Assembly: GCA_006212045.1 (NCBI GenBank)
Contig: PZPK01000017.1
Coordinates: 1 to 64,000, forward strand
DNA from: Oleiphilus sp.
Lineage (GTDB): Bacteria > Pseudomonadota > Gammaproteobacteria > Pseudomonadales > Oleiphilaceae
Length of the DNA stretch: 64,000 nt
Reading direction: 5' to 3'
Shown: one piece after another, positions 46,191 to 57,697 of the stretch
How the letters are laid out: each line of letters starts with the position of its first letter
Numbering within the stretch: the first letter of the stretch is position 1
Position numbers and translations under genes: made by a program
The notes under the pieces: generated by a model
The model's database searches: none
Told to the model about the DNA's origin: nothing
What the model saw: the letters and a program-made list of their open reading frames with translations, nothing else

Positions 46191-46928
46191 TTATGCGACG
46201 GCTTCTCTGTTGCAGGCATCAAATTGGGATTGGATCAGCTCAAAGACTTCCAGGCTAAAACCCATTCCGATATGCGTGGCCCTGACTTCATGATGGCTAA
46301 CATCCGGAGACCATCGGTCAATGCATGCCTGCCAAGACACAATGCCGTCGGCCTTGGAATAAATGGCGACGATGGGGTTGGTGATCGGAACCTCAAAGCG
46401 TGCCTGCATTTCACGCTCGATACTGTCTGGGTCCCATCCGAAGACGGCGCTGAAACTTTTCAGCGCCGTAAATTTTGGACCTCCGATCACGGGTGAGCCC
46501 AGTGTTGTGATTTGTTGAATTGCATCCGGACAGGATCTGGCTAATTCCCTGGCGATGATGCCGCCAAGGCTCCAGCCAACCAGGCTGATGCGCCGACCAT
46601 GCTTGTCACAGAGATAGTTAACGCGGTTGATCAGCGGTTCAATAACGTCATGAACCTTGCCGTCGTTGAAACCCTGACCCCAGCTATAGGCTGCATGTCC
46701 CTGATGTCGGAGATACTGTTTCAGTACGGCGATGGACATTTCACCGCCCAGAAAGCCGGGTATCACCATTACGGTGCTGCCCGAGGATGCTGTGTTTGGC
46801 TTGATCGAGGGCCAGCGCATGGCCAAATGTGCGAGGTAAAGGCCGGAAAGCGTCTCACCCATTTGTTTCCGGAGCGAGGGCGGAGAGATATTCCGGTATT
46901 CGACATGGGTGCAGCTGGACGAACTCAT
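46191..46928 (-). CDS. Alpha/beta-hydrolase (lipase-like)
   Basis: 245 residues without a signal peptide. The oxyanion strand is VMVIPGFLGGEMS; the nucleophile Ser is in LVGWSLGGIIAREL (about residue 119); the acid is probably Asp in YSKADGIVSW and the His in ATHIGMGFS near the C-terminus. The order and GFLGGE loop suit the triacylglycerol-lipase/PGAP1-like part of the fold. Substrate is unknown. AAGGGG lies upstream of the ATG. It is divergent from the binding-protein gene at 47076. Confidence 0.88.
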   Translation of the reverse strand: MSSSSCTHVEYRNISPPSLRKQMGETLSGLYLAHLAMRWPSIKPNTASSGSTVMVIPGFLGGEMSIAVLKQYLRHQGHAAYSWGQGFNDGKVHDVIEPLINRVNYLCDKHGRRISLVGWSLGGIIARELARSCPDAIQQITTLGSPVIGGPKFTALKSFSAVFGWDPDSIEREMQARFEVPITNPIVAIYSKADGIVSWQACIDRWSPDVSHHEVRATHIGMGFSLEVFELIQSQFDACNREAVA

Positions 46929-54575: not shown

Positions 54576-57002
<2,427 letters not shown>

Positions 57003-57224
57003 TCAAAGAGCAAGGCAAAAGTTCTGGAATCAGGACTTTTGCCGGGTATGCAAAAGCAGCATTTGAAACGAGACACTGTTGGCAAATAAATGCTTGCATG
57101 CCCCAAATGCACTCCCTATAATACGCCCCACTTCGATTGCCATGGTGGGTGAGAGGAAGCTTGATGATTGATTTCATTAAGTTTTTTGAAGGGTAAACGT
57201 GCGATATTCTTGTACGTTACCAAT

Positions 57225-57293
57225 GACAGGGATGCCATCTGTGAGAGCAGTATAAATATCGTATACCTCCTAAAGCGGGAATAGCTCAGTTGG
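57225..57293 (+). repeat. Duplicated unit, copy 1: tRNA-Gly upstream region plus 5' part
   Basis: Sixty-nine bases from GACAGGGATG through the 19-nt 5' end of tRNA-Gly are repeated at 57397–57465 with only two differences (172-bp offset). The copied part includes TATAAAT/CATAAAT and GTATACCTCCTAAA just before the tRNA. It shows that promoter and gene start were duplicated together. Confidence 0.92.
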
Positions 57294-57390
57294 GCGAAGC
57301 AAACGTTAGCAAAACAGCGTTTTGCGTGCAGCGGAGCGACAGCAATCTGTGATTGCTGGCCGGAAGAGCGCAAGGTAAAGAGCGTGCTCT
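57275..57390 (+). pseudogene. Degenerate tRNA-Gly copy A, interrupted in the D loop
   Basis: The first 19 nt match the intact tRNA-Gly (acceptor 5' strand and D stem), then diverge at the D loop into about 95 nt of hairpin-rich sequence. Perfect stems with 2–3-nt loops are GCAAAACagcGTTTTGC (57309–57325), CAGCAATCtgtGATTGCTG (57340–57358) and AGAGCgtGCTCT (57379–57390). No anticodon arm or 3' end follows. It cannot make a normal tRNA. Confidence 0.85.
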
Positions 57391-57396
57391 ACCGAA

Positions 57397-57465
57397 GACA
57401 GGGATGCCATCTGTGAGAACAGCATAAATATCGTATACCTCCTAAAGCGGGAATAGCTCAGTTGG
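57397..57465 (+). repeat. Duplicated unit, copy 2: promoter region and 5' part of intact tRNA-Gly
   Basis: The second copy of the 69-bp unit leads directly into the intact tRNA gene. It therefore probably contains the working promoter; a -10-like CATAAAT is visible, but no strong -35. Confidence 0.88.
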
Positions 57466-57522
57466 TAGAGCACAACCTTGCCAAGGTTGGGGTCGCGAGT
57501 TCGAATCTCGTTTCCCGCTCCA
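57447..57522 (+). tRNA. tRNA-Gly (anticodon GCC)
   Basis: 76 nt with encoded CCA. The acceptor stem GCGGGAA pairs with TTCCCGC; the D arm is TAGCTCAGTTGGTAGAGC; the anticodon stem CAACC/GGTTG encloses TTGCCAA with anticodon GCC at 57480–57482; the T arm has GTTCGAATC. All stems are complete, so this is the functional copy at the locus. Confidence 0.98.
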
Positions 57523-57575
57523 AATTTTCTCCTTGCCGTAACGCATTCTCTGTACGATACAAGCCAGAGCCGGGC

Positions 57576-57697
57576 ACAAGCTTGCCAAGGTTGGGGTCGC
57601 GCGTTCGAGCCGAGCGTTTCACGCGAGACATGGTCGGCGGAACGACGACCACCCGAAGGGTGAGGGCAAAGCCCGAATCATTTTGTTTCCCGCTCCA
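57576..57697 (+). pseudogene. Degenerate tRNA-Gly copy C, interrupted in the T arm
   Basis: From the anticodon arm on (CACAAGCTTGCCAAGGTTGG at 57576 onward) the sequence follows the intact tRNA to GTTCGA (57608), then 65 nt are inserted before CGAATC…TTTCCCGCTCCA. The insert is again a string of small perfect hairpins: GCGTttcACGC (57614–57624), GGTCG/CGACC (57632–57650), CACCCgaaGGGTG (57650–57662) and GGGCaaaGCCC (57664–57674). The 5' half of the tRNA is missing. Confidence 0.83.

Follow-up and report, generated by a model that had tools for sequence, protein, structure and literature searches.

The window, by which we mean the whole stretch of 64,000 nt of Oleiphilus sp. DNA analysed here, carries an intact tRNA-Gly (GCC) gene at 57447-57522, called by ARAGORN and scoring 71.2 bits against the Rfam tRNA model; it and all other features of the locus lie on the forward strand. 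In line with the first-pass annotation, which was accurate to the base on this point, the gene stands between a 5′ half copy broken in the D loop and a 3′ half copy interrupted in the T arm, neither of which received a tRNA or tmRNA call from ARAGORN. The upstream half copy as a whole extends over 57275-57378 and holds a structured D-loop insert of 70 nt. It begins with nt 1-19 of the tRNA (57275-57293, 19/19 identical to the intact gene), continues with a structured core lodged in the D loop (57294-57363, matched by our covariance model R1 at 57292-57363 and backed by covariation and by homologues in many genera), and then resumes tRNA sequence at 57364-57378 (AGAGCGCAAGGT against AGAGCACAACCT, a 9/12 match), from the 3′ strand of the D stem to about the anticodon stem. 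Further on, GTGCTCTACC (57384-57393) reads directly as the exact reverse complement of GGTAGAGCAC in the tRNA, and closes a small hairpin in the predicted fold.

The half copy is preceded by a leader (57225-57274), the second copy of which (57397-57446, delimited by comparison of the duplicated units) lies immediately 5′ of the intact tRNA. Leader and 5′ half together form a unit of 69 nt, 57225-57293, that recurs at 57397-57465 unchanged but for two positions, 57247 and 57251; its first copy ends in the D loop after GTTGG. The count of two changes agrees with the first-pass annotation, but the unit had been said to include a promoter and consists instead of leader and 5′ half: the best promoter match, a putative sigma70-type TTGCAT-17-TATAAT read directly, lies at 57094-57122, upstream of both copies. 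The same promoter arrangement is present upstream of the single tRNA-Gly in the relatives G004 and G001, and across 15 loci promoter-like scores were 11.4 upstream of the repeat as against 8.9 between repeat and tRNA (p 0.002). With promoters upstream of it, the 5′ repeat probably belongs to the pre-tRNA as its leader. The region 54576-57002, immediately before the tRNA locus, encodes a protein with an N-terminal stretch that by eye resembles a von Willebrand A domain, and with a long Glu-Pro repeat near its C-terminus.

Both core hairpins, GCAAAACagcGTTTTGC (57309-57325) and CAGCAATCtgtGATTGCTG (57340-57358), are perfect, as had been noted at first reading, and CACCCgaaGGGTG and GGGCaaaGCCC are likewise found at the locus; the two core stems have the support of the covariance model and of covariation. 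In the 64-kb window, only two places, one of them the tRNA-Gly locus, have two perfect stems of at least 7 bp within 90 nt; when the insert was shuffled by mononucleotides 20,000 times, a fraction of 5e-5 of the shuffles had two such stems. Predicted RNA folding energy by itself stands out only a little (z -2.5 in the 5′ unit and -1.4 in the 3′ element), and the strong evidence for the 5′ core is covariation rather than folding energy. Of all short-loop stems in the window, the longest lies elsewhere, at 46444-46469: 12 bp, perfectly paired, around a loop of 2 nt.

A 3′ repeat of the RtT kind and its 5′ counterpart

Repeats linked to the 3′ side of tRNA genes have been known from E. coli since 1978. 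At 57560-57697, beginning 38 nt downstream of the intact gene, the window matches the RtT RNA family (RF00391) over its full length, at 29.5 bits (E 0.002, cmscan), which is below the gathering score of 45 bits. This element comprises a 3′ half (57574-57608), a hairpin insert in the T loop (about 57609-57680) and a tRNA 3′ tail (57685-57697), the tail being slightly diverged from the intact tRNA-Gly (16/18 identical). Copies in the congeneric G004 exceed the gathering score (46.9-47.0 bits); above this cut-off, RtT is found in 8/58 relatives, G004 among them, and in 25/370 genomes sampled across the class, or 65/370 at E 0.001. A third match in the window's own genome (C70:62076-62184, E 7) was taken as chance. 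By sequence, the 3′ element of the window thus belongs, as a diverged member, to a kind already known, the tRNA-linked repeats (TLRs) or RtT. Units of this kind, of which 22 have been listed in ten E. coli loci with a 3′ identity of 18-19 bp, have in every case described been copied from the 3′ end of the preceding gene (PMC8144298).

The 5′ element departs from that rule, being a copy of the 5′ end of the gene that follows it (19/19). Among 4227 Rfam covariance models it had no significant match, the one overlap being at chance level (E 3.3), and the other copies of the core were likewise unmatched in Rfam. Neither Rfam nor the open-access papers searched held an earlier description of the 5′ type, which subscription papers may mention. 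The first-pass statement that no standard element has this form is therefore wrong for the 3′ copy and, within Rfam and those papers, right for the 5′ copy.

To follow the 5′ type we used R1, which was built from five homologous cores (the window, the tRNA-Gly locus of G003, the tRNA-Phe locus of G005, contig C46 of the window's own genome, and G024). Matches were obtained in 100/163 genomes of the family and in 21/370 sampled across the class, with up to 13 core copies in one genome. When the tRNA D arm and the core were searched as one DNA pattern, 14 contigs matched, from Gilvimarinus, Microbulbifer, Tamilnaduibacter, Marinobacter halodurans, Cellvibrionaceae, Halieaceae and unplaced relatives. 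At 15 loci where an intact tRNA (Arg, Phe or Gly) follows, the half copy is identical to that very tRNA at 18-19 of 19 nt, and at every one of them tRNA sequence resumes after the core and runs to about the anticodon stem (11/12 matching in G003). The core occupies the same place in the D loop in Arg, Phe, Gly and Met half copies, and in those of Ile2 and Ser too by partial assembly; in Gilvimarinus the 5′ units stand in tandem with periods near 178 nt.

A genome-wide look for the core in other tRNA copies, as proposed at first reading, was rewarded in the window's own genome, where full-length matches lie at tRNA-Gly, at tRNA-Ile2 behind rpoD and in a tRNA-Ser half copy. The rpoD, Ile2 and Ser identities were read from the sequence; the Ile2 copy is split between two contig ends, and the Ser contig breaks inside a second unit and ends without an intact Ser gene. 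Searches of plasmids with the 5′ insert gave chance matches only and with a canonical intergenic copy none, nor did the G003 unit match in E. coli genomes. Across the class, genomes with the 5′ type tend to carry the 3′ type as well (odds ratio 4.9, p 0.001, with genus-mates related and the events thus not independent). At one further locus (L152, in G265), the same core breaks the 5′ part of a tRNA-Leu close to the anticodon loop, in tandem with a period of 149. Taken together, the 5′ element is the mirror image of the 3′ TLR and is new as far as Rfam and open-access papers show, and the phenomenon of 5′ and 3′ repeats is real and widespread.

Settings of the core and its folded strand

The core also occurs outside tRNA loci, and its linkage to tRNA is therefore no necessity. 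In the neighbouring genus g12, most copies that we read lie in intergenic palindromes away from tRNAs, with outer stems specific to each site: the longest perfect run is 18 bp on average, as against 7 between sites. At L105, L106, L107, L119, L122 and other loci of this genus, nearly perfect site-specific outer stems of up to 32 bp surround a conserved interior. Two sites are informative about the core itself. At G152:C25 it lies in the palindrome loop after ATGG, whereas G047, G175, G117, G102 and G088 keep the palindrome without the core; at L105 site 3, likewise, G179, G172 and G094 keep the palindrome without it. At L105 site 1 (L105:1363, G110:C1), G179 and G172 lack the element altogether; where it is present, its left outer arm repeats the right flank in inverted form, and the empty sites have that flank once. 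Long palindromes that were already in place were considered as the source of the site-specific outer stems and were rejected, the relatives at this site holding the flank once. The insertion here leaves an inverted duplication, not a direct one.

In other members of the class the core is found in reverse orientation, in the T arms of 3′ repeats that follow tRNA-Pro, Leu and Arg and match the tRNA end at 14-15 of 15 nt. Its GGGTGAG end faces the acceptor side in these repeats and in the 5′ repeats alike. Both kinds meet at the tRNA-Arg locus of G396 (L146), where two 5′ units (period 172) and four 3′ units (period 114) make this a second case of a tRNA flanked on both sides, the 3′ units carrying the same core in reverse orientation. 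From these settings we tentatively suggest, at rather less than even odds, that a single hairpin module lodges in hairpin loops (D arms, T arms in reverse, intergenic palindromes) and is the source of the mirror-image TLRs, its target being loop structure and not sequence.

The pairing of the core is borne out by substitutions. In the five loci of R1, 10/22 pairs show compensatory change on both sides, and among 66 distinct sequences 16/22 pairs covary, with a score of 0.314, where shuffles give 0.108 and sliding no more than 0.068; as this alignment was fitted to R1, the pair count leans towards the model, and with genus-mates related the pairs are not independent. In outer stems, chosen by Watson-Crick matches only, G-U outnumbers A-C by 16 to 1 (p 0.0003), and in core stems by 9 to 0. 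This asymmetry implies folding of one strand, be it RNA or single-stranded DNA; antisense copies gave 5 G-U and 2 A-C, informative pairs too few to separate the two. Judged from these substitution patterns, the core is a structured module that is kept up as a fold of a single strand.

Locus history and origin of the repeats

Within the genus, G004 and G001 have an orthologous single tRNA-Gly with a similar promoter and neither repeat, and G002 too has a single tRNA-Gly, while G003 has a 5′ unit, beside the same MOSC-gene neighbour as in the window, without a 3′ unit. On this comparison, both repeats come and go within the genus. Contrary to the first-pass view that the 69-nt duplication is recent, the leader pair of the G003 5′ unit is a different one and equally well matched; leader pairs that match within a genome and differ between G000 and G003 point to homogenisation, which can explain the near-identity.

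We consider it likely that the locus is a tRNA-Gly gene with two mirror-image TLRs, derived from duplicated tRNA ends and a loop core, that would be transcribed together with the tRNA and trimmed away in its maturation. Each unit would have arisen by tandem duplication of one tRNA end with its flank, with the core carried in the loop of the duplicate, and recombination among the repeats would then have enlarged and homogenised the arrays. The single tRNA promoter upstream probably serves both units, which are probably cut away as the tRNA matures, as some E. coli TLRs have been shown to be. What the analysis shows is the anatomy, the identity with the neighbouring tRNA, homology and covariation in different genera, the loop position, presence and absence among relatives, and promoter-like matches upstream; co-transcription, processing, the order of duplication and insertion and the spread of the core are our inference.

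The most serious competitor, which we regard as possible though on balance doubtful, is that the core is a non-autonomous mobile element inserted by an enzyme into the hairpin loops of folded single strands, the tRNA halves being convenient hairpins with no RNA function. The occurrence of the core, at two sites, in a palindrome loop that relatives have without it, its identical D-loop position at different tRNAs, its two orientations relative to the tRNA and its number of up to 13 per genome would all suit such an element, but loss of the core instead of gain would fit the palindromes too, recombination between homologous stems could carry the core, and we saw no direct target duplication and no linked transposase. 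A Y1 transposase, as associated with REP/RAYT or IS200-type elements, looks doubtful as the mover, its presence being uncorrelated: PF01797 is found in the window's own genome and is absent from G095 and G110, two genomes with many copies. The first-pass idea of a palindromic element that inserts into tRNA loops thus holds as a pattern (the same D-loop place, T arms and palindrome loops), active insertion being one option for a pattern that stem recombination gives as well.

We think it unlikely that the repeats act as functional small RNAs, such as sponges of an RNA-binding protein or decoys for tRNA enzymes. Covariation is strong, and the rRNA-linked E. coli TLRs rrA, rrB and rrF are transcribed and processed and bind Hfq and CsrA in vitro (PMC8144298), but structure alone is no proof of benefit, presence is patchy among species of one genus, and an early claim of a role in the stringent response for a tyrT repeat has since been withdrawn (PMC8144298). 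Far less probable still are broken tRNA pseudogenes with hairpins grown by template switching, as the first-pass annotation had also offered. One intergenic copy, whose left arm is an inverted duplication of its right flank, agrees with such growth, as does GTGCTCTACC of the window as the reverse complement of the tRNA D arm; the core, however, has homologues in different genera that share conserved loops and covarying stems, and is therefore not made anew at each site, so that template switching is not needed to account for it. An artefact of assembly has a negligible chance of being the answer: some contigs of this draft genome do end inside such repeats, but the same structure recurs in independent genomes, including the complete chromosome of Microbulbifer sp. 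YPW16 and G396, a genome in two contigs. With this recurrence, and with no Rfam match for the 5′ copy, neither of the trivial outcomes foreseen at first reading, a known mobile element or an artefact, applies to it.

Our preferred reading, of two mirror-image TLRs, places the locus among several known systems. The E. coli TLRs, the 178-bp tyrT repeat and RtT (RF00391) are like the 3′ element of the window in that they follow a tRNA, end in that tRNA's own 3′ end, consist of a string of small hairpins and sometimes stand in tandem. The 5′ element follows the same logic at the opposite end of the gene, but unlike TLRs it copies the 5′ end of the downstream gene, breaks the D loop and not the T loop, and has a core unmatched by RF00391. 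MITE-like repeats (ERIC/IRU, REP/BIME) share with the core that they are multi-copy, palindromic and intergenic, and in the neighbouring genus the core sits in such palindromes; its outer stems, however, are specific to the site, without shared inverted repeats. Membership of ERIC/IRU was rejected: the GGGTGAG and GCAG words look alike by eye, and R1 run unfiltered on an E. coli ERIC had no match up to E 10. The half copies also recall tmRNA and interrupted tRNA genes, which are tRNA ends with an insert, but each copy here has one half only.

To our knowledge, tRNA-linked repeats have been known for more than 40 years without an agreed function and have been described only at the 3′ side. A 5′ class with a core of its own, spread over many genera and tRNAs and with species that have or lack it at the same locus, opens origin and function to testing, and palindromes that differ only in having or lacking the core in their loop point to loop-directed spread.
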